From assembly GCA_030524785.1 (NCBI GenBank), contig JAUNFZ010000021.1:1-32407 (forward strand): a DNA stretch of 32,407 nt. Reading direction: 5' to 3'. Below the pieces are notes generated by a model that ran no database searches, was not told the origin of the DNA, and saw nothing but the letters and a program-made list of their open reading frames with translations. The position numbers were made by a program, and so were the translations under genes. This stretch comes from Eubacteriales bacterium. GTDB lineage: Bacteria; Bacillota; Clostridia; Lachnospirales; Lachnospiraceae. This document shows, in pieces, positions 12,956 through 20,981 of this stretch (positions are counted from its first letter, which is position 1; every line of letters starts with the position of its first letter).

Positions 12956-13711
12956 ATGAATTTTCTCTGGGGCAGCATGATTTTAACCGGTATTTTATAT
13001 GGGGCCTTTCACGGAACAATGCAGGAGATTGGCGACGCCGTGCTGGCCTCCTCAAAGGAGGCTGTTGCGCTGTGTATCACCATGACGGGCGTGATGGCTC
13101 TGTGGACAGGACTTATGAAGATTGCGGAGGAAAGCGGCATGGTGGCGGGGCTGACCCAAAAGCTTGCCCCTTTCGTCCGTTTTATGTTCCCGAACATTCC
13201 GGAAAATCATCCCGCCAGAGAACATATCAGTATGAATATCATTGCTAACGTGCTGGGGCTTGGCTGGGCGGCGACGCCGGCAGGGCTTAAAGCCATGGAG
13301 AGCCTGGCGGAACTTGAGGAGGAGCGGCGGCAGGCGAATGTGGGGGCAAGGATGCAGGGAGCAGAAGCGAAGCATCAGACTTTTGAAGAAAAGTTAGGAA
13401 TTGAGCGGCAGAAAAGGTATCCGGGAGGGCAAAGCGCCGGGCAGACGGGGCGAAAATCAGGCAGGCCGCGGTATATACCACATATAAAAGCCATGCCCGG
13501 CGGCGTTGCCAGCAACGAAATGTGTACGTTTCTGATTTTAAATATTTCGTCGCTGCAGCTTATACCGGTAAATGTAATCGCCTACCGCGCGCAGTACGGC
13601 AGTGTGAATCCGACGGCAATCGTCGGGCCGGGGATTGCGGCGACGGCGGTGAGCACGGGAGTGGCGGTGGTGTTTTGTAAAATGATGGATAAAAGAAAGC
13701 GGAGAGCGTAA
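12956..13711 (+). CDS. spmA: Spore maturation protein A, with an extra internal segment
   Basis: A 251-residue membrane protein of the nucleoside-recognition (Gate) domain family. SpmA works with SpmB in dehydrating the spore core. Family features are the opening M-N-F-L-W-G-x-M-I-L segment, G-L-G-W-A-A-T-P-A-G-L-K-A-M (101-114) and S-N-E-M-C-T-F-L-x-L-N-x-S-S-L-x-L-I-P (186-204). B. subtilis SpmA has about 196 residues; here a basic, polar insertion of about 50 residues (about 131-182) interrupts the loop between those two motifs. The start at 12956 is chosen by homology; its ribosome site (GACGGAAA) is weak. spmB does not follow. The last 468 bases, from codon 97, recur twice downstream. 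Confidence 0.9.
   Translation: MNFLWGSMILTGILYGAFHGTMQEIGDAVLASSKEAVALCITMTGVMALWTGLMKIAEESGMVAGLTQKLAPFVRFMFPNIPENHPAREHISMNIIANVLGLGWAATPAGLKAMESLAELEEERRQANVGARMQGAEAKHQTFEEKLGIERQKRYPGGQSAGQTGRKSGRPRYIPHIKAMPGGVASNEMCTFLILNISSLQLIPVNVIAYRAQYGSVNPTAIVGPGIAATAVSTGVAVVFCKMMDKRKRRA
13244..13711 (+). repeat. spmA 3' repeat, copy A (in the intact gene)
   Basis: This 468-bp segment, from GCTAACGTGCTGGG (codon 97) to the stop, recurs at 16320-16787 with the same length and as a shortened form at 18749-18850. Copies A and B differ by about ten amino acids, mostly in and around the extra segment. Homology stops abruptly at GCTAAC on the left. Confidence 0.93.
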
Positions 13712-13730
13712 GAACTCCGCTTTCTTTTAT
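13689..13730. terminator. Bidirectional intrinsic terminator at the spmA end
   Basis: A perfect 16-bp inverted repeat, ATAAAAGAAAGCGGAG (13689-13704) and CTCCGCTTTCTTTTAT (13715-13730), with a 10-base loop containing the spmA stop codon. The A/T flanks give a T-rich tail in both directions. Confidence 0.8.
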
Positions 13731-13810
13731 GGGAATACTCATTTTAATCATTAAATCAGTTCTGGTATATCATGACATGCTAGCTATTGAGATAAAATCT
13801 TGCGTTTCTC

Positions 13811-13838
13811 TTGTAAATAACAAAAAAATGATTATAAT
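13811..13838 (+). promoter_or_regulatory. Promoter of the first AlbA_2/GHKL gene
   Basis: TTGTAA at 13811-13816 and TATAAT at 13833-13838 with a 16-bp spacer, 34 bp before the start codon. The DUF4143 gene's promoter has the same -35 variant TTGTAA. Confidence 0.65.
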
Positions 13839-13872
13839 AATTGTTAGATTAGAATTGGCTGGAGGATGTTCT

Positions 13873-15207
13873 ATGTTCATGGAAAACAAGACGACGGAAT
13901 TCAAAAGAGAGTATGTTGATGATATTAAAAATACAATTGTCGCCTTTGCAAATTGCGACGGCGGAACACTCTATATTGGTGTGAATGACGACGGAACAGT
14001 TTGTGGTGTTGACAATGTTGATGATACTATGTTACGTGTAACGAATGTAGTTAGGGATGCTGTGCGTCCGGACATTACTATGTTTGTGGAGTGCCGCAAT
14101 GATATGATGGCAGAAAAGCCTGTTGTAAGCGTAATTGTCCAACGTGGTACAGCGCGGCCATACTATTTGCATGGGAAAGGAATTCGTCCGGAAGGCGTTT
14201 ATGTTCGTCAAGGTGCGTCTACAGTTCCGGCGACGGATGCGGCTATTTTAAATATGATTAAAGAAACCGGCGGCGACAGTTACGAAGCAGCCCGTTCGCT
14301 TGATCAAAATCTTACTTTTCATAAGGCTGCGGATTTTTTCAAAAAGAGAGAGATGGAATTTAGAAAAAACCAAATGCGTACACTTCATCTAATTGGAGAG
14401 GATAATATGTACACGAATCTGGCTTTTTTGCTATCGGATCAGTGCACACATATGATCAATCTGGCTGTTTTTGAGGGCAGCAAAAAATCCGTATTTAAAG
14501 ACCGCCGAGAATTGTCAGGCTCTCTTTTGGAGCAGTTAGAAGAAGCTTTCGATTATATTGACCGTTATAATCGTACTCGTGCGGAATTCTCTGGATTGGA
14601 TCGGTTAGATATGCGGGATTATCCGCCAGAGGCAATTCGTGAGGCATTGCTGAATGCTATTGTTCATCGGGACTATTCCTTTAGTGGCGCCACTCTTATC
14701 AGTATTTTTGATGATAGAATTGAATTTGTAACAATCGGAGGCTTGGTAAAAGGTATTACATTGGATGATGTGAATTTGGGTGTATCTGTATTACGTAACC
14801 AGAATTTAGCGAATATTTTCTATCGTCTGCGACTGATCGAGGCGTATGGTACAGGGATCCTTAAAATTAATGAGTGTTATGGTGATTATTCTGTAAAACC
14901 TGTGATAGAAACAACAAACAATGCCTTTAAGATTACTCTTCCGAATACAAATTTCCATGAAGAAGAACAAAAGCTTCAGAATTCTTCTAAAATAGGAGGA
15001 TCTACCAGTGTAACGAAAAAACAAGAACGAATTGATGTGGTCATAGCGTTATGCCGTAAGAAGGGTTTCGTTATTCGAAGCGATGTAGAAATGGCGCTTG
15101 GTGTATCTCAATCTACAGCAATCCTGCTTCTGCGAGAATTGACAAATGATGGTATACTGATTAAAAAGGGAAAAACTAAAAATCTGCGATACTATGAGAA
15201 CAAATAA
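13873..15207 (+). CDS. AlbA_2 (Schlafen-like) DNA-binding / GHKL ATPase-like protein with C-terminal winged helix
   Basis: The 444-residue protein belongs to the COG2865-type family. An AlbA_2 domain covers about residues 6-125 (T-x-E-F-K-R then I-V-A-F-A-N-x-D-G-G-T-L-Y-I-G-V, and G-V-Y-V-R-x-G near 108-114). A GHKL-type ATPase-like domain covers about 250-345 (R-E-A-L-L-N-A-I-V-H-R-D-Y at 256-268 and E-A-Y-G-T-G-I at 323-329). A winged-helix domain ends it (about 385-440). GGAGG at 13861-13865 selects the ATG at 13873; upstream in-frame codons would be in the promoter. Such proteins are frequent on accessory DNA, and their function is poorly known: transcription control and phage defence are both proposed. 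Base composition is much lower in GC than spmA. Confidence 0.88.
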   Translation: MFMENKTTEFKREYVDDIKNTIVAFANCDGGTLYIGVNDDGTVCGVDNVDDTMLRVTNVVRDAVRPDITMFVECRNDMMAEKPVVSVIVQRGTARPYYLHGKGIRPEGVYVRQGASTVPATDAAILNMIKETGGDSYEAARSLDQNLTFHKAADFFKKREMEFRKNQMRTLHLIGEDNMYTNLAFLLSDQCTHMINLAVFEGSKKSVFKDRRELSGSLLEQLEEAFDYIDRYNRTRAEFSGLDRLDMRDYPPEAIREALLNAIVHRDYSFSGATLISIFDDRIEFVTIGGLVKGITLDDVNLGVSVLRNQNLANIFYRLRLIEAYGTGILKINECYGDYSVKPVIETTNNAFKITLPNTNFHEEEQKLQNSSKIGGSTSVTKKQERIDVVIALCRKKGFVIRSDVEMALGVSQSTAILLLRELTNDGILIKKGKTKNLRYYENK

Positions 15208-15303
15208 AAAGGCATTTGCAAGAAAAATGATGGAAAAACAGTAAGGGTATTTATTCTCCGGATAAGAGAATTTTAACTTTGTTATAGAAGAGAGGCGGAT
15301 GAT

Positions 15304-16278
15304 ATGGCAGTTCACATTTTTTGTGTTACAGAGGAAAATTATGAAATATGCATCAGGTGTGGCTTGGTTGGTTTGCCTGAACCTAAAGAAGGCCGAGGTA
15401 GGAACAATATATTTGACGGTCTGCTTTCGAGAATGTCAGCAATACGGGAATCAGATTACATTTTATTATATATCATTGGGAAAAAACAATTGCAGGGTTT
15501 GTGGCAAGCAGAGGGGAGAGCTTTTTATGAAGAGACAATCGTATGGCCAGACAGAATATATCCGTTTCGGTGTAAAATCAAAACAACTCCGTATCATTTT
15601 GATAAAGCATTAAAACTAAATGATATTAATGATTTACGAAGTACTGGAAAAATTTGGACATGGGCGTTGCAAAGGACAAGCGGTGCAAATGCAATGTTCT
15701 CCATTTCTGATAAAGAATTTGATGTTTTGCTGAGAGAATATATGAAAATAAATCCGTTTACTATTTCTAAAGGCATTATTCGCGAACCGTATCCATTTCG
15801 TGAGTACAATCTTAAAGATTATGTACATATTGAAAAAGGACAGCCGCAGTATGAATATTCTGTTATGACACTTCTTAATGATGCTTTTGCAAATGGAGAG
15901 TATACTGATATTTTTGGAAATTATACAGACTATCTGAGTTATGTGCCGACAAACTTGGGAAAAGAAATGGATTTGTTGCTAATATTTGGAGATCCATTTG
16001 AAAAAGCGCAAATTGCTTCATATGATATTATAGAAGTGAAACGTTCTGAATTTGATGAGAAGGCATTAATACAGTTGATTGATTATGAATCGTGGTTTTT
16101 ACAAAAGAAAGTGTCGGGGGATTTAAATATGGTTCGCACGACTGCAGTAGCGAGAACTTTCTCAGAAGTTGTGGTTGATTATGTGAGAAAACGAAAGCAA
16201 TTTGAGGATAAGCCGATAAAATTATTGCAATATAATTATGCTTCAAATGGACGGTTAGAATTGCGGCAATTATTATAA
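15304..16278 (+). CDS. Putative EVE-like/PUA-fold domain fused to PD-(D/E)XK nuclease domain
   Basis: A 324-residue protein I do not recognise as a named gene. The N-terminal part (about 1-125) resembles EVE/PUA-like modified-base readers: a first strand H-I-F-C-V-T-E-E-N, then D-Y-I-L-L-Y-I and G-L-W-Q-A-x-x-x-x-F-Y with a following Y-P-F-R-C-K-I strand. The C-terminal part (about 175-310) has the spacing of a PD-(D/E)XK nuclease: E184, D223 in E-M-D-L-L-L-I, E244-V-K246, then Q257 with Y261. Such a fusion would fit a type IV-like restriction enzyme that cuts modified DNA. AGAGGCGG precedes the ATG by 5 bp. It lies 96 bp after the AlbA_2 gene in the same cassette. The motifs are seen; the function is inferred. 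Confidence 0.6.
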   Translation: MAVHIFCVTEENYEICIRCGLVGLPEPKEGRGRNNIFDGLLSRMSAIRESDYILLYIIGKKQLQGLWQAEGRAFYEETIVWPDRIYPFRCKIKTTPYHFDKALKLNDINDLRSTGKIWTWALQRTSGANAMFSISDKEFDVLLREYMKINPFTISKGIIREPYPFREYNLKDYVHIEKGQPQYEYSVMTLLNDAFANGEYTDIFGNYTDYLSYVPTNLGKEMDLLLIFGDPFEKAQIASYDIIEVKRSEFDEKALIQLIDYESWFLQKKVSGDLNMVRTTAVARTFSEVVVDYVRKRKQFEDKPIKLLQYNYASNGRLELRQLL

Positions 16279-16304
16279 ATCGTGATGGTTTTAAAAAATT
16301 TAGT

Positions 16305-16318
16305 CCTAACTTGACACC
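16305..16318 (+). repeat. Cassette-end motif, copy 1
   Basis: CCTAACTTGACACC lies two bases before spmA copy B. The identical 14-mer precedes copy C at 18734-18747, and CCTAACTT alone ends the array at 20884-20891. It shares CTAAC with the left limit of the spmA repeat. Confidence 0.75.
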
Positions 16319-16319
16319 G

Positions 16320-16787
16320 GCTAACGTGCTGGGCCTTGGCTGGGCGGCGACGCCGGCAGGGCTTAAAGCCATGGAGAGCCTGGCGGAACTTGAGGAGGAG
16401 CGGCGGCAGGCGAATGTGGGGACAAGGATGCAGGGAGAAGGAGCGAAGCATCAGACTTTCGAAGAAAAGTTAGGAATTGAGCGGCAGAAAAGGTATCCGG
16501 GAGAGCAAAGTGCTGGGCAGACGGGGCGAAAATCCGGCAAGCCGCGGTATATGCCACATATAAAAGCCATGCCCCTCGGAGTGGCCAGTAATGAAATGTG
16601 TACGTTTCTGATTTTGAACATTTCGTCGCTGCAGCTTATACCGGTAAATGTAATCGCCTACCGTGCGCAGTACGGCAGTGTGAATCCGACGGCAATCGTC
16701 GGGCCGGGGATTGCGGCGACGGCGGTGAGCACGGGCGTGGAGGTGGTGTTTTGTAAAATGATGGATAGAAGAAAGCGGAGAGTGTGA
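16320..16787 (+). pseudogene. Truncated spmA, copy B (3' part only)
   Basis: It encodes SpmA residues 97-251 with about ten substitutions, no frameshift and its own stop, but lacks the first 96 codons. An in-frame TTG at 16311, inside the cassette-end motif, could open the frame, yet no ribosome site precedes it. Most changes fall in the 130-183 segment that is also the extra insertion of intact SpmA. The coding frame is preserved, suggesting recent origin or exchange with the intact gene. Confidence 0.92.
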
Positions 16788-16801
16788 GGCCCTCCGTTTT
16801 T
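16772..16801 (+). terminator. Terminator after spmA copy B
   Basis: The stem AAAGCGGAG (16772-16780) pairs with CTCCGTTTT (16792-16800), with one G-U pair, and is followed by T. It is the diverged counterpart of the 16-bp stem at intact spmA, so the terminator belongs to the repeated unit. Confidence 0.65.
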
Positions 16802-16952
16802 GATTTATTTTTTGCCAAAAATGAAATAAACCAAGAGATTATTGGTATACAAATAGATTCTGAAAGATTATAATACAAATAGCAGTTGAATTATGAAAGA
16901 AAAAATTGAAGTATTTATTGAAATAAGAGTTGTATAATTGAAGGGGGATATA

Positions 16953-18692
16953 ATGACAAGTAACGAAATATTAGATTTGCTAAAATATGGGGAACGGCTT
17001 ACGTTGGAATGTAAAAAAGCTGAAGGCGGCCTTCCAAATGCGCTTTGGGAAACGTATTCCTCATTTGCTAATACCAGTGGTGGGGTAATTTTGCTTGGTG
17101 TAGAGGAGCATTTAAAAGAAACAGAGTTGGAAAAAAGATTTACTTTTTGTAATTTGAGTAATCCCGAAAAGATGATAAAGAGTTTCTGGGATACCGTTAA
17201 TAGTAAAAAGGTGAGTGCAAATCTCTTACTGGATGAAAACGTTGGAATCTGTCAAATAGCCGGGTGTAACATTATATGGATAGAAGTTCCTCAGGCAGAT
17301 TATCGGTATCGCCCTGTATATTTAAATGAAAATCCACTGAAAGGAAGTTATAAGAGAAATCACGAAGGAGATTATCATTGTACGGAAGCGGAAGTAAAGG
17401 CAATGCTAAGGGATGCTTCTGATTTTGGGATTGATGGTTCTCTCCTGGAAGGATTTACAATGGATGACATTGATGAAAATACTCTAAAGACATACAGGAT
17501 TGAATATGAATTGCATAATCCGGAACATGTGTGGAATGGATCGGAGGATAAAGATTTTTTAAGAAACTTGGGAGGTTATACGGTTAATCGAATAACAAAG
17601 CAGGAGGGACTTACTGTGGCCGGACTGTTAATGTTTGGAAAAGGATTGGCTGTCAGAGAGCGGTTTGACAATATTCGTATGGACTATATTGATCAGACGA
17701 ATTTGATAGGAGAAAGCAGATGGAGTGATCGGTTAACCTATGATGGAAGTTGGGAGAATAATCTCTATAATTTTGTGAAACGAGTATTACCAAAACTGGT
17801 CAGCAATATAAAAAGACCGTTTCAGTTACAAGGGATGATTCGGCAAGACGATACAGCAGTTCACAAGGCTGTACGGGAAGCTGTGATTAACATGATTATC
17901 CACGCTGATTACTACGGCACCGGAATTTTGAAAGTTGTGAAACAGGATAATGGATTCTTCTTTTCAAATCCGGGGAATTTGAAGCTGCCTGTACAGGCGA
18001 TATATGAAGGTGGACATTCCATTGCAAGAAATCCTAAAATTCAAAATATGTTTCGTATGATCGGATTAGGTGATAATATTGGTTCGGGATTTCCTGCCAT
18101 TTTAAAGGCATGGGGAGAAGAAAAATGGAGACAGCCAGATTTATATGACGATCAGGAATTGCATCAGGTAGAACTGAAATTGTGGACAATATCATTAATG
18201 CCGACAGAATGTACAGAGTTTTTAAATAATAAATTTGGAATTAATTATTATCATTTATCATCAAAAGAACAAATTATTCTGGCGACGGCATATCTTGAGG
18301 GGAAAGTATCAAACAGTCGCTTGCAAACAGTACTGGGGGAGCATTCTGCTGAGGTGGGAAAATATTTGTATCACCTGGTTGAAAAAGAAATGTTGATTCC
18401 TGAAAGGAAAGGACGGTGGACAACCTATTATATTAATAACGAATATATAATACAGCCGGAACAAATGACAATACAGGATATGCCTGTACGGGAGACGGTT
18501 TTGAATGAAACGGATCAGAAAATTTATAACTATGTCAGAGCAAATGGAATGATTACTTCGCAACAAGTGGTTGAGATAACTGGAATTTCAACATTGCAGG
18601 GCGCCTCTGTTGCGTTGAATAGAATGATAAAAAAAGGCTTACTTTTAAAACGGAGGAAAGGACGGCATATTTATTACCAGCTATTGGAATGA
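16953..18692 (+). CDS. AlbA_2 / GHKL ATPase-like protein with two C-terminal winged helices
   Basis: A 579-residue member of the same broad family as the gene at 13873, but only distantly similar. The AlbA_2 domain lies near residues 10-150 (L-T-L-E-C-K-K, then S-S-F-A-N-T-S-G-G-V-I-L-L-G-V). The ATPase-like domain has R-E-A-V-I-N-M-I-I-H-A-D-Y with N-P-G-N-L and G-x-G-D-N-I-G-S-G-F-P. The C-terminal quarter has two winged-helix-like blocks, the last with a T-S-Q-Q-V-V-E-I-T-G-I-S recognition unit. AAGGGGG at 16941-16947 fixes the ATG at 16953 over the upstream TTG. It is the only cargo between spmA copies B and C. Role unknown: regulation or defence. Confidence 0.88.
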   Translation: MTSNEILDLLKYGERLTLECKKAEGGLPNALWETYSSFANTSGGVILLGVEEHLKETELEKRFTFCNLSNPEKMIKSFWDTVNSKKVSANLLLDENVGICQIAGCNIIWIEVPQADYRYRPVYLNENPLKGSYKRNHEGDYHCTEAEVKAMLRDASDFGIDGSLLEGFTMDDIDENTLKTYRIEYELHNPEHVWNGSEDKDFLRNLGGYTVNRITKQEGLTVAGLLMFGKGLAVRERFDNIRMDYIDQTNLIGESRWSDRLTYDGSWENNLYNFVKRVLPKLVSNIKRPFQLQGMIRQDDTAVHKAVREAVINMIIHADYYGTGILKVVKQDNGFFFSNPGNLKLPVQAIYEGGHSIARNPKIQNMFRMIGLGDNIGSGFPAILKAWGEEKWRQPDLYDDQELHQVELKLWTISLMPTECTEFLNNKFGINYYHLSSKEQIILATAYLEGKVSNSRLQTVLGEHSAEVGKYLYHLVEKEMLIPERKGRWTTYYINNEYIIQPEQMTIQDMPVRETVLNETDQKIYNYVRANGMITSQQVVEITGISTLQGASVALNRMIKKGLLLKRRKGRHIYYQLLE

Positions 18693-18733
18693 TTATTCAA
18701 GTTGAAGTATTGATTGATGAATTATTTTTTAAC

Positions 18734-18747
18734 CCTAACTTGACACC
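18734..18747 (+). repeat. Cassette-end motif, copy 2
   Basis: CCTAACTTGACACC, identical to 16305-16318, again directly before a partial spmA copy. Confidence 0.75.
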
Positions 18748-18748
18748 A

Positions 18749-18850
18749 ACCAACATGCTGGGCCTTGGCTGGGCGGCGACGGCGGTGAGCACGGGCGTGG
18801 CGGTGGTGTTTTGTAAAATGATGGATAGAAGAAAGCGGAAGGCGAATTAA
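18749..18850 (+). pseudogene. spmA remnant, copy C (internally deleted)
   Basis: The first about 27 bases match the start of the repeat and the rest match its last about 75 bases. The join is at GCGGCGACG, which occurs twice in intact spmA (13268-13276 and 13637-13645), 369 bp apart. One copy is lost together with everything between, an in-frame deletion of 123 codons by short-repeat recombination or slippage. The normal stop has changed (TAA to AAT) and the next codon TAA ends the frame. Confidence 0.9.
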
Positions 18851-18924
18851 AAAAGAGCTGGCGTTTGCGGAAAACAGATGCGATTATCCTGCACAGTGGA
18901 TATGAAAAAATCATATTTTCAAAT

Positions 18925-18980
18925 AAAATCAGCCGAAAAATCAATCGTAAAAATTTGCGATTGTTTTTTCGGCTGATTTT
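18925..18980. repeat. Long palindrome (23-bp arms, one mismatch)
   Basis: The arms 18925-18947 and 18958-18980 match at 22 of 23 positions around a 10-base AT loop; the core is CAGCCGAAAAA with TTTTTTCGGCTG. It can act as a bidirectional terminator, since T runs occur on both strands, or be a relic of a small mobile element end. It separates spmA copy C from the broken AlbA_2 gene. Confidence 0.75.
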
Positions 18981-19358
18981 GCATATCGTATTTATATAAA
19001 TCAAAAGCATACAAGAGAAACGATACAGCAACGATAGAAGCAGATACGCTCGAATTTTCAAGGCTTATATTAGATGGAAAAAATGTTAGATTTGAAGAAT
19101 TGCCATGTAAAGATCAGCAATTATCTTTTGAAGTTTTGCGCCGTAAGCTAAAAGAAAGTATTCAGATTTAATTTGACAGAAGATGAAAAAACAATTTACA
19201 AAATCATGAGTAAGACAATATTGAAACCAATAAGTGAAATTGCACCATATATACCTTTTGGCAAATCAAAAACAACACAGTTACTGAAAGATATGGAACA
19301 AAAAGGAGTGATAACGGTTAAAGGTAAGGGCAGAGGGACTAAATATATAATAAAATAA
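18977..19358 (+). pseudogene. Remnant of a third AlbA_2-family gene (internal deletion, frameshift)
   Basis: Two pieces in different frames remain. The first (18977-19171) encodes the end of an AlbA_2 domain, with A-Y-K-R-N-D-T-A-T-I-E-A-D and L-I-L-D-G-K-N-V-R-F-E-E-L-P followed by D-Q-Q-L-S-F-E-V-L; this pattern is known from the COG2865-like family. It ends at a TAA. The second (about 19173-19358, shifted by one base) encodes a C-terminal winged helix of about 60 residues with no ribosome site of its own. The N terminus and the ATPase-like middle are missing. The last part could still be read as a small protein from TTG 19173, but this is unlikely. Confidence 0.75.
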
Positions 19359-19507
19359 TGAGGAGTGCGTAAGCTCCCCGTCATTTGTCTTATGAAAATA
19401 GGCAGCGAGACAAGATGTTCGTTTGCAAAATGTGTAGATATAACAAAAAAATCATTCGAGAAACGTGATAATATTGAAAAATATCATTTGGAAAATGTGA
19501 TTTTAGA

Positions 19508-19536
19508 TTGTAAATTAGATTACAATTGGATATAAT
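19508..19536 (+). promoter_or_regulatory. Promoter of the DUF4143 ATPase gene
   Basis: TTGTAA at 19508-19513 and TATAAT at 19531-19536 with a 17-bp spacer, 35 bp before the start codon. Confidence 0.7.
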
Positions 19537-19548
19537 AAAGTACAAAAG

Positions 19549-19560
19549 CTTTCGCGAAAG
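19549..19560. promoter_or_regulatory. 12-bp palindrome between promoter and ribosome site
   Basis: CTTTCGCGAAAG is a perfect palindrome just after the expected transcription start and touching the AAGAAGG ribosome site of the ATPase gene. It is a candidate operator or translation-blocking hairpin. Confidence 0.4.
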
Positions 19561-19571
19561 AAGGTGTGCGC

Positions 19572-20888
19572 ATGTACAGAGATGCGATAAAGCAGTTAGA
19601 AAAATGGAAAAATATGTATGATAGAAAACCGCTGATACTCAGAGGGGCAAGACAGGTTGGCAAGACATGGCTGATGAAGGAGTTCGGAAGATTATATTAT
19701 CAGAACTGTGCATATGTCAGCATGGATGAAAACGAGAGGATGACAGAGGTATTTCGAGAGGCTTTTGATATTGACAGAATCATAGCTATGATTGAAATTG
19801 AAGTGGGATTTAAAATTAATCCTGAAAATACATTGATTATTTTTGATGAAATTCAGGAGATACCGAGAGCATTAAAGTCATTAAAATATTTTCAGGAAAA
19901 TGCACCGCAATATCATATTATTGCGGCGGGGTCTCTACTAGGAGTTGCGTTGCATCAGGGCACGTCATTCCCGGTGGGAAAAGTTGACTTTTGTGATCTG
20001 TACCCACTGACATTTCATGAATTTTTGCTTGCATGTGGCGAAGACAGACTCCTGGAGGCACTTGACAACAATGATTTTGATACGATGCATGTATTTCGGA
20101 CAAAGTATATAGATTATCTGAAATACTATTATTATGTTGGTGGAATGCCCGAGGCAGTGCTGAATTTTATTACAAGAAAAGATTTGAAAAGCGTTCGGGC
20201 AATTCAAAATAAATTATTGTATGCATACGAAAATGATTTGTCAAAACATGCGCCGCAGGAAATTGTTACGCGAATCCGGATGCTTTGGAATTCTATCCCG
20301 GCGCAGCTCGCCAAAGAAAATAAAAAATTTATATATGGCTTGGTTCGTGAAGGGGCAAGAGCGAGAGAATACGAGGTGGCAATTACATGGCTTCTGGATA
20401 CGGGTTTGGTATATAAAATCAACAGAGTAAAAAAGCCGGATTTTCCATTAAGGGCATATCAGGAATTTTCGGCGTTTAAGCTGTTTGTATTGGATGTTGG
20501 GCTGCTATGTGCAATGGCTCATCTGGATGCAAAAATTATATTAGAAGGCAACCGGCTTTTTGAAGAATTTAAAGGGGCTTTAACAGAACAGTACGTTCTT
20601 CAGCAATTGATAGTTGAGCCGGAAAACGATATTTTCTACTGGACAGCAGAAAATGCAACGGCAGAGTTAGACTTTTTGATTCAGTATGAAGAAAAAATCA
20701 TTCCAATGGAAGTAAAGGCGGAGGAAAATCTTCGTGCAAAAAGTCTTAGACTGTTTACCGACAAGTATAAGATGAGGTATGCAGTAAGGAGTTCCATGGC
20801 TGATTACCGGAAGGAGGAATGGATGATAAATTTTCCGTTGTATAATATCGGAAACTTAAATCGATATTTAAAAACTTTTCAGCCCTAA
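19572..20888 (+). CDS. AAA ATPase with DUF4143 C-terminal domain
   Basis: The 438-residue protein has an AAA_14-type P-loop domain (Walker A G-A-R-Q-V-G-K-T at 25-32; Walker B I-I-F-D-E-I-Q near 95) and the DUF4143 domain at the C terminus. The latter ends in a nuclease-like core, E-L-D-F-L-I then P-M-E-V-K. These proteins are common, highly mobile and of uncertain role in Clostridia and Bacteroidota; no substrate can be named. The ATG at 19572 is chosen because AAAGAAGG lies 7 bp before it; a GTG at 19566 is in frame but too close. It is the last gene of the array; its stop codon is part of the CCTAACTT motif. Confidence 0.9.
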   Translation: MYRDAIKQLEKWKNMYDRKPLILRGARQVGKTWLMKEFGRLYYQNCAYVSMDENERMTEVFREAFDIDRIIAMIEIEVGFKINPENTLIIFDEIQEIPRALKSLKYFQENAPQYHIIAAGSLLGVALHQGTSFPVGKVDFCDLYPLTFHEFLLACGEDRLLEALDNNDFDTMHVFRTKYIDYLKYYYYVGGMPEAVLNFITRKDLKSVRAIQNKLLYAYENDLSKHAPQEIVTRIRMLWNSIPAQLAKENKKFIYGLVREGARAREYEVAITWLLDTGLVYKINRVKKPDFPLRAYQEFSAFKLFVLDVGLLCAMAHLDAKIILEGNRLFEEFKGALTEQYVLQQLIVEPENDIFYWTAENATAELDFLIQYEEKIIPMEVKAEENLRAKSLRLFTDKYKMRYAVRSSMADYRKEEWMINFPLYNIGNLNRYLKTFQP

Positions 20889-20981
20889 CTTAATTTACCC
20901 ATCAAATCAGGTTCTGGCTATCAAAACCTGGTAAAATTTTAAGATCTTTTGTAGATAAATCTGAGTGAATGGAGGTCAAAA

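Follow-up and report, generated by a model that had tools for sequence, protein, structure and literature searches.

Tandem cassettes behind spmA in a Lachnospiraceae genome, probably derived from elements with CcrB-like serine recombinases

How does a gene come to be followed by further copies of its own 3′ end, with accessory genes between them? The question is raised by contig JAUNFZ010000021.1 of a Eubacteriales bacterium of the Lachnospiraceae (assembly GCA_030524785.1), a stretch of 32,407 nucleotides that we call the window, in which a gene that we take to be spmA is followed by two such copies. The name is our assumption: it was the call of an earlier note made from the letters of this DNA, and it agrees with relatives in which the gene precedes a gene that is presumably SpmB-like. 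None of the family models used names the gene spmA, NCBIfam gives no match, and Pfam finds a sub-threshold Gate domain in the product (E 8e-5). Homologs occur in 83 of the 115 genomes searched, the window's own counted in. We conclude, with a probability of roughly 60%, that the array from 13247 to about 20891 is a tandem accretion of three gene-restoring cassettes, E1 to E3, derived from elements with CcrB-like large serine recombinases (LSRs). A motif of about 24 nt, TTTAGTCCTAACTTGACACCAGCY, stands before each extra spmA copy in the window and is called END below. The parts of the array are as follows.

12956–13711, + strand: spmA, open (open reading frame and repeat); its 3′ part from the core at 13247 is read as the left end of cassette E1
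13247–13248, + strand: putative crossover dinucleotide AA of the left junction, the same as in unoccupied site 1, placed by comparing intact with END-joined copies
13692–13727, + strand: terminator-like hairpin with a 13-bp stem, overlapping the spmA stop codon, read directly from the sequence
16299–16322, + strand: END of E1, TTTAGTCCTAACTTGACACCGGCT; core AA at 16323–16324
16320–16787, + strand: second spmA 3′-end copy, left end of E2; synonymous divergence (dS) 0.127 and nonsynonymous divergence (dN) 0.032 over 155 codons
18728–18751, + strand: END of E2, TTTAACCCTAACTTGACACCAACC; core AA at 18752–18753
18749–18850, + strand: third spmA 3′ copy, internally deleted, left end of E3
20881–20891, + strand: possible degenerate END closing E3, AGCCCTAACTT, with no spmA 3′ end behind it; a weak reading of the sequence

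The repeat is 468 bp long, with 443 of 468 positions identical between 13244–13711 and 16320–16787. The third copy has lost its middle: a GGCGGCGACG direct repeat marks the point where the start of the segment is fused to its final ~72 bp. The coordinates that the earlier note gave for all three copies agree with ours. The breakpoint lies at codon 97, provided that the gene starts at the ATG at 12956. The accessory DNA at 13.5–21.0 kb has 32–43% G+C vs 49–57% at 9.0–13.5 kb. In the window's genome (2.75 Mb, 114 contigs) spmA has three matches at E 0.001, all in the array. We rejected a chance repeat or an assembly error on these genome-wide matches and on a relative, G003, a single-contig 4.58-Mb genome with the window's arrangement. 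Assembly error, which the earlier note had named as a possible refutation, is unlikely because of G003 and because END-joined spmA tails also occur in the named isolates Drancourtella massiliensis An770 and Lachnospiraceae bacterium 3-2.

The same motif marks the joint in relatives. The part of END shared before extra copies is TTTARYCCTAACTTGACACC plus a few bases, and END also precedes the extra copies in G002, G003, G006 and G400/G458. Among the same-genus genomes other than the window's, 4 of the 7 listed have an spmA match. The earlier note expected relatives with zero, one or different cassettes, and they exist: G001 has a single spmA with no extra copy, G002, G003 and G006 have one extra 3′ copy each behind END, and G448, G453 and G454 carry several different cassettes behind spmA. 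In G003 (locus L033) the cassette directly behind spmA is related to that with the 584-aa AlbA_2 protein, which stands second in the window; window 16569–18780 and L033 2986–5208 (reverse complement) share 82.9% DNA identity. The cassettes of G002 and G006 carry cargo other than that of the window and G003. The codon-97 breakpoint predicted by the note recurs in other genera (L081/L117, L107 and L123; also L114). Its single insertion point does not survive the comparison, as END is fused at three or more points inside spmA, namely at codon 97 (site 1), between IIA and Y (site 2) and at NISSLQ (site 3, seen only in L083), with a degenerate END at a fourth (AGLKAM, site 4, in L178, L179 and L185), and to other genes as well.

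These other targets came from an exact END scan of an 84,980-species collection (257 billion bases, both strands, 36 bits). It gave 33 stretches, of which 24 join the 3′ part of a gene and 9, six of them from Shewanella, do not, the translations being read by eye; roughly 7–8 matches were expected by chance on our own arithmetic. The gene tails belong to spmA (14), an S8 protease (4, two from one genome), an M23 peptidase (3), a SpoVAC-like gene, ParB and a helicase (1 each). The SpoVAC-like protein scores 139.5 bits with TIGR02838 (cut-off 164), and a Csp-like target, a partial protein, matches the germination protease CspBA at E 6e-60 with 203 bits vs a cut-off of 1250; Peptidase_M23 was found by Pfam in L093, and ParB and the helicase were recognised by eye. 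We set aside as chance the six Shewanella stretches, L097, L098, L118 and the viral L121. In the phage record H1 (MT837168.1) the match extends to 16 bases short of the record end. A looser scan (up to 2 mismatches, 397 family genomes) found END in runs, four consecutive in G128 and in G214 and two in G162, with gene tails behind; a gene-tail junction or array is readable in 8 of its 16 genomes with matches (G000, G128, G162, G208, G214, G226, G350 and G400). G214 has the S8 3′ end four times behind END, once in the gene and in two 46-bp pieces elsewhere, and G162 has a SpoVAC-like gene with two extra END-joined copies and two shorter pieces. In L072 (G128:C45) the END-flanked cassettes share a ~150-bp left end that is not readable as a gene tail, the last END being fused to what by eye is a truncated tyrosine-integrase-like gene.

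The joints can also be compared base by base. Position 26 is A in 30 of 30 chosen junctions, which the search pattern does not require (the degenerate site-4 joints were left out). At base 24, intact and END-joined copies carry different letters, both in L033 (G and T) and in the S8 gene; because of this difference, the crossover should lie at or after base 25, a result independent of any symmetry of the site. On general grounds, we set aside a group II intron or IStron end and an integron attC. The terminator hairpin was rejected as a second element end, as hairpins near the spmA stop also occur in L038 and L041, where no END was found; hairpins like that at 13692–13727 stand at several other spmA 3′ copies, in a survey that is qualitative only, its stop-finder having overshot in many rows.

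END is tied to serine recombinases in relatives. In L072, L122 and L123, three consecutive LSR genes precede END at a distance of 6 to about 390 bp; the first LSR gene of L123 is cut, and in L072 a short resolvase-like open reading frame intervenes. In L104, END lies about 3.6 kb behind two LSR open reading frames, the first cut by the locus end, and LSR pieces precede END in L089, L092, L108 and L110. Our LSR survey covered 22 loci, L104, L122 and L123 among them, with the L072 triplet counted outside it; 15 of the 22 show no LSR upstream of END, the DNA on that side being short in some. In Pfam, three proteins of L122 and one of L123 match both Resolvase and Recombinase, and two L122 LSRs match the CcrB model at 122.8 and 58.7 bits, far below its cut-off of 900. 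A related-locus search with the L123 LSR returned its own record only. The window cargo holds no LSR by open reading frames and Pfam.

The opposite end of such an element can be read in G451. On contig C40 of this genome an element cuts spmA at site 2 without restoring the gene, and in G454 a relative of this element, of which one LSR piece is left, sits at site 2 of a spare spmA copy; both have the left end TA-TGAATRATTTATAATAGGACTAAA. Contig C54 of G451 carries END, two LSR genes and an spmA tail, and the C40 end and the C54 END are likely the ends of one element. Placed together, they give a site with 24 nt on either side of TA, in which the 10-bp inverted repeats TTTAGTCCTA/TAGGACTAAA stand equidistant from the core; when one half was shuffled, 5 of 200,000 shuffles had an equally long in-register run. 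A 24-TA-24 site with inverted repeats is the usual attP layout of LSRs. The window holds only the END half of this site: the motif of the other half, the putative P′ arm, was not found there at up to 1 mismatch, and it was seen joined to spmA only in L108/L179 and L147/L186. Given the LSR genes before END in some relatives and the fit of END to one side of the symmetric site, the cassettes of the window appear to be derivatives of such elements that have no recombinase. The earlier note's term integrase-free fits the cassettes of the window and not all of the wider family. Its claim that spmA is restored holds for the array genomes examined, where the gene is open, with the exception of G451, in which the opposite-end element cuts it; a restoring tail is seen only in the recombinase-less form. 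The only long spmA match found in G451 (L147/L186, contig C40) is cut at residue ~174 by the element, which may leave G451 with no intact spmA.

The spare 3′ ends were also compared with the intact genes. Thirteen within-genome copy pairs have dS of 0.03–1.02 and dN/dS of 0–0.31, with 129 synonymous and 91 nonsynonymous changes in sum; most segments are 40 codons, so that single values are rough, and END is missing in front of one of the spare copies, L178_12594. The L081 pair has dS 0.45 and dN 0.025 over 98 codons. Duplication in place would let a dead copy vary freely, so low dN/dS fits the joining of two functional lineages, and the spare ends appear mostly to have diverged as functional sequence in another lineage. 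In L083 an END-joined tail is followed at once by the SpmB-like gene (in NCBIfam, only PRK10519 below cut-off); with that gene directly behind the right tail, the right copy is native and the left one imported by geometry. The left copies of a nucleotidyltransferase (NTase) cassette, L178_11298, L179_12052 and L181_3382, are 86–88% alike. L178_11298 is closest to L181_3382 (88%) and L179_12052 (87%) vs 84% to the intact gene of L178 itself, and for L179_12052 the intact gene of L179 falls outside the listed top six, at 79% or less; for L181_3382, L192_134 is slightly closer, at 89%.

In the account that we favor, the parent elements would integrate with CcrB-like LSRs, typically three in a row. 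Each cassette would consist of an NA core dinucleotide in spmA, an imported spmA 3′ end with its stop, cargo and END, the last being one half of the element's attP. Integration at the core would split the host gene, the 3′ end carried at the left of the cassette would complete spmA, and the host's own 3′ end would stay behind END as a spare fragment. The LSR would be supplied in trans, cassettes may spread and be reshuffled through homologous recombination between 3′ ends, and the cargo, made up of candidate genes, is probably kept for phage defence. That the symmetric site is an LSR attP, that the LSR acts in trans and which copy is the imported one are steps that we infer. A more specific version, offered tentatively, is that in gut spore-formers helper CcrB-like triplets may move recombinase-less defence cassettes via half-attP/half-gene sites, largely into sporulation and germination genes, with the carried 3′ end restoring the gene and the spare tails catching later insertions as decoys. 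A larger element of G454, its LSR genes decayed, lies in such a spare tail, and the full spmA is untouched.

Several points weigh against a serine recombinase origin with trans-acting integration. The loose scan gave 27 END matches in 16 of 397 genomes and its control, the reversed pattern, 40 in 34; because the END counts do not exceed this control, the case for END rests on context. The exact scan ran without a control pattern, and at END positions 1–19, 21 and 23 the search pattern introduces a bias. The core is not constant (AA in the array, TA at site 2 of spmA, GA for the SpoVAC-like target and CA for the S8 gene); it was placed with symmetry in view, and the site-4 junctions, with their degenerate END, do not fit an NA core. 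The two ends of the G451 element lie on different contigs. The window's genome (92% complete) has no LSR of the END-linked kind, the best matches, on another contig, having 23–28% identity, and no native spmA 3′ end lies behind E3. In the window's own copy pair, dN/dS is 0.25 from 24 changes and not sharp. The cassettes have no P′ arm, so the cassette junction would be an attR-like P/B′ hybrid, and we know of no LSR that readily integrates at such sites. Lastly, L182 and L193 share one three-gene cassette, 94% identical over 2 kb, at different spmA sites; in the 5′ part of spmA, 60-nt windows share 45–73%, the 3′ parts differ by about 20%, and high identity sets in at the spmA stop rather than the core, which means that cargo and tail did not move together in this case. 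The pair may reflect later recombination or a homologous-recombination route. The reversed-pattern control and the site-4 joints lower the odds of the LSR account, and because of the absent P′ arm and the L182/L193 pattern we divide our confidence among a trans-acting LSR, homologous recombination and scars.

That cassettes of the same origin now move by homologous recombination, with RecA excising a circle via the 3′-end repeats and inserting it at any spmA 3′ end, and with END as a fossil, seems to us rather unlikely. It would suit the absence of a recombinase from the window cassettes and the repeats of roughly 130–470 bp that flank cassettes, and it would explain why identity in L182/L193 begins at the stop, where homology to the host 3′ end would cease. 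Copies within a genome are often only 80–90% identical, however, which is poor for RecA, and END stands right at the joint, with the A at position 26 in all chosen junctions. We judge it unlikely that the array consists of scars, that is, LSR insertions later mended by recombination with an intact spmA, their left ends lost and the remnants immobile. The cut spmA of G451, the relative in the spare copy of G454, the LSR pieces in several cassettes and the deleted third copy of the window would all agree with this, but cassettes related to one another turn up in more than one host, at more than one site and at varying places in an array, and several stacked copies per genome would need as many independent mends. 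Both explanations share the origin proposed in the LSR account, so the odds overlap.

Two further explanations fare worse. Divergent tyrosine-recombinase-like proteins often come first behind spmA (L034, L035, L178 and L179), and they adjoin the restored gene as the integrases of 3′-end islands would; that in L034 matches Phage_int_SAM_1 at E 3.5e-4, just below the cut-off. No such protein is present in the window cargo, that of L035 has no Pfam match and seemingly no catalytic residues (by eye), and no PDB or PHROG match was obtained, which makes them very improbable integrases of the array. They are encoded at L034 5465–6496, L035 3845–4852 (minus strand), L178 4135–4710 and 5378–6460, and L179 7733–8815 (minus strand), have 335–360 aa with one partial of 191 aa, and are very divergent with catalytic residues that seem incomplete by eye. 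Tandem duplication in place or an assembly artefact would give copies as similar as those of the window (about 95%) and of G003 (98%); given the same structure in a single-contig genome, dS values that reach 1.0 in other genomes while dN/dS stays low, and END at the joints, this is scarcely credible.

The cargo of the three cassettes is as follows.

13729–15207, + strand: E1, 492-aa protein with AlbA_2 (Schlafen-like) and HATPase_c_4 domains (Pfam E 2.7e-22 and 5.4e-16)
15304–16278, + strand: E1, 324-aa protein with a nuclease-like EVK motif seen by eye only
16938–18692, + strand: E2, 584-aa protein with AlbA_2, HATPase_c_4 and winged-helix domains (Pfam)
19060–19360, + strand: E3, possible decayed coding remnant (by eye)
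19566–20888, + strand: E3, 440-aa AAA_14/DUF4143 ATPase (Pfam), PADLOC candidate PDC-S01 (E 2.5e-187)

Scans with Pfam, PADLOC, PHROG and NCBIfam found no integrase or transfer genes among the window's cargo proteins, and no match at all for the 324-aa protein. The PADLOC scan covered ten cargo proteins, four of them from the window, and gave one match each to PDC-S01 (the 440-aa ATPase), PDC-S05 (a RhuM protein), JetD, ThsA-like and NsnB; three AlbA_2 proteins had weak pAgo-type matches only, the 584-aa protein also a weak SoFic match, and a 497-aa protein of L104, like the 324-aa protein, had none. Defence-like is a fair description of the cargo, whose genes are no more than candidates for defence. 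The G128 cassettes behind the LSR triplet appear by eye to carry a hydrolase, MATE and AraC. E3 also contains a 27-bp inverted repeat (93% complementary, 2-nt gap) at 18925–18980. Proteins with AlbA_2/HATPase_c_4 domains, or pieces resembling them, are found repeatedly as cargo, behind three target genes in all (13729–15207 and 16938–18692 in the window; L033, L034, L075, L089 and L093), by Pfam for the window and L034 and by BLASTP similarity for the rest, and are possibly an unrecognised defence family. In G003, JetC/JetD-like genes lie directly upstream of spmA (L033 88–2386, reverse complement) and are related by BLASTP to L083 genes just before END, where Pfam and PADLOC both identify JetD. 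To judge by eye, three genomes (L033 6973–14766, reverse complement; L184; L192) have what look like type I-C-like cas genes on the right of spmA or its array.

Stacked elements of this general kind have precedents. The staphylococcal cassette chromosome elements (SCC and SCCmec), recombinase-less SCC included, use Ccr LSRs, insert into one gene and form tandem arrays; their attachment (att) site occupies the very 3′ end of rlmH and comes with a short repeat. The array resembles them in its tandem form and its one-gene insertion, and its relatives do so in their CcrB-like LSRs, with the caveat that the L122 matches to CcrB lie far below cut-off, and differs in having spmA rather than rlmH as target, internal sites with tails of up to 468 bp, and no LSR in the cassettes. 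The published systems that follow are compared as far as the cited passages describe them. SCCmec is mentioned in the work on Dehalococcoides ssrA islands (PMC3146451), which are themselves stacked behind one gene, have a CcrB-like recombinase and carry a 3′-end direct repeat after a conserved 15-bp motif; 15 of them have no integration module and are discussed there as possible cis-mobilizable elements. Unlike the array, these islands target a tmRNA gene with a 20-bp repeat, have one large and one small recombinase and carry dehalogenase cargo (PMC3146451). Integrative and conjugative elements of streptococci have a serine-integrase triplet near att, insert inside genes with 2–8 bp direct repeats and disrupt mutT, traG and hsdM, with no gene-restoring tail described in the passages cited (PMC4701971). 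Insertion inside genes is shared with the array; three consecutive LSR genes are likewise found near END in L072, L122 and L123, not in the window cargo. Cis-mobilizable elements (CIMEs) accrete in tandem, integrase-less elements being stacked at one att site, as are the window cassettes, which have neither integrase nor transfer genes; CIMEs keep attL and attR (PMC5704250), whereas the window cassettes have no P′ arm. The gin element of Bacillus cereus shares with the relatives three serine recombinase genes and a sporulation-gene target; its target gerE is interrupted and rejoined during sporulation (PMC5595907), and spmA, by contrast, is open while occupied.

A literature search of open PMC papers gave nothing that we recognised as this arrangement. 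Since serine-recombinase islands stacked on 3′-end repeats, some without integration modules, are known, the kind of arrangement is not new, and the earlier note's view that it is undescribed can be kept for the internal sites, several in spore genes, and the long gene-restoring tails; otherwise the array is a variant of SCC/CIME/ssrA-island accretion. If our account is correct, gut Lachnospiraceae would have a gene-cassette platform comparable to SCC, in which the tag can be recognised, the landing genes can be predicted and the cargo is small and defence-like. The END tag helps to locate such cassettes and candidate defence genes, and occupied spore genes that stay open would contrast with skin, gin and SP-beta, which interrupt theirs.

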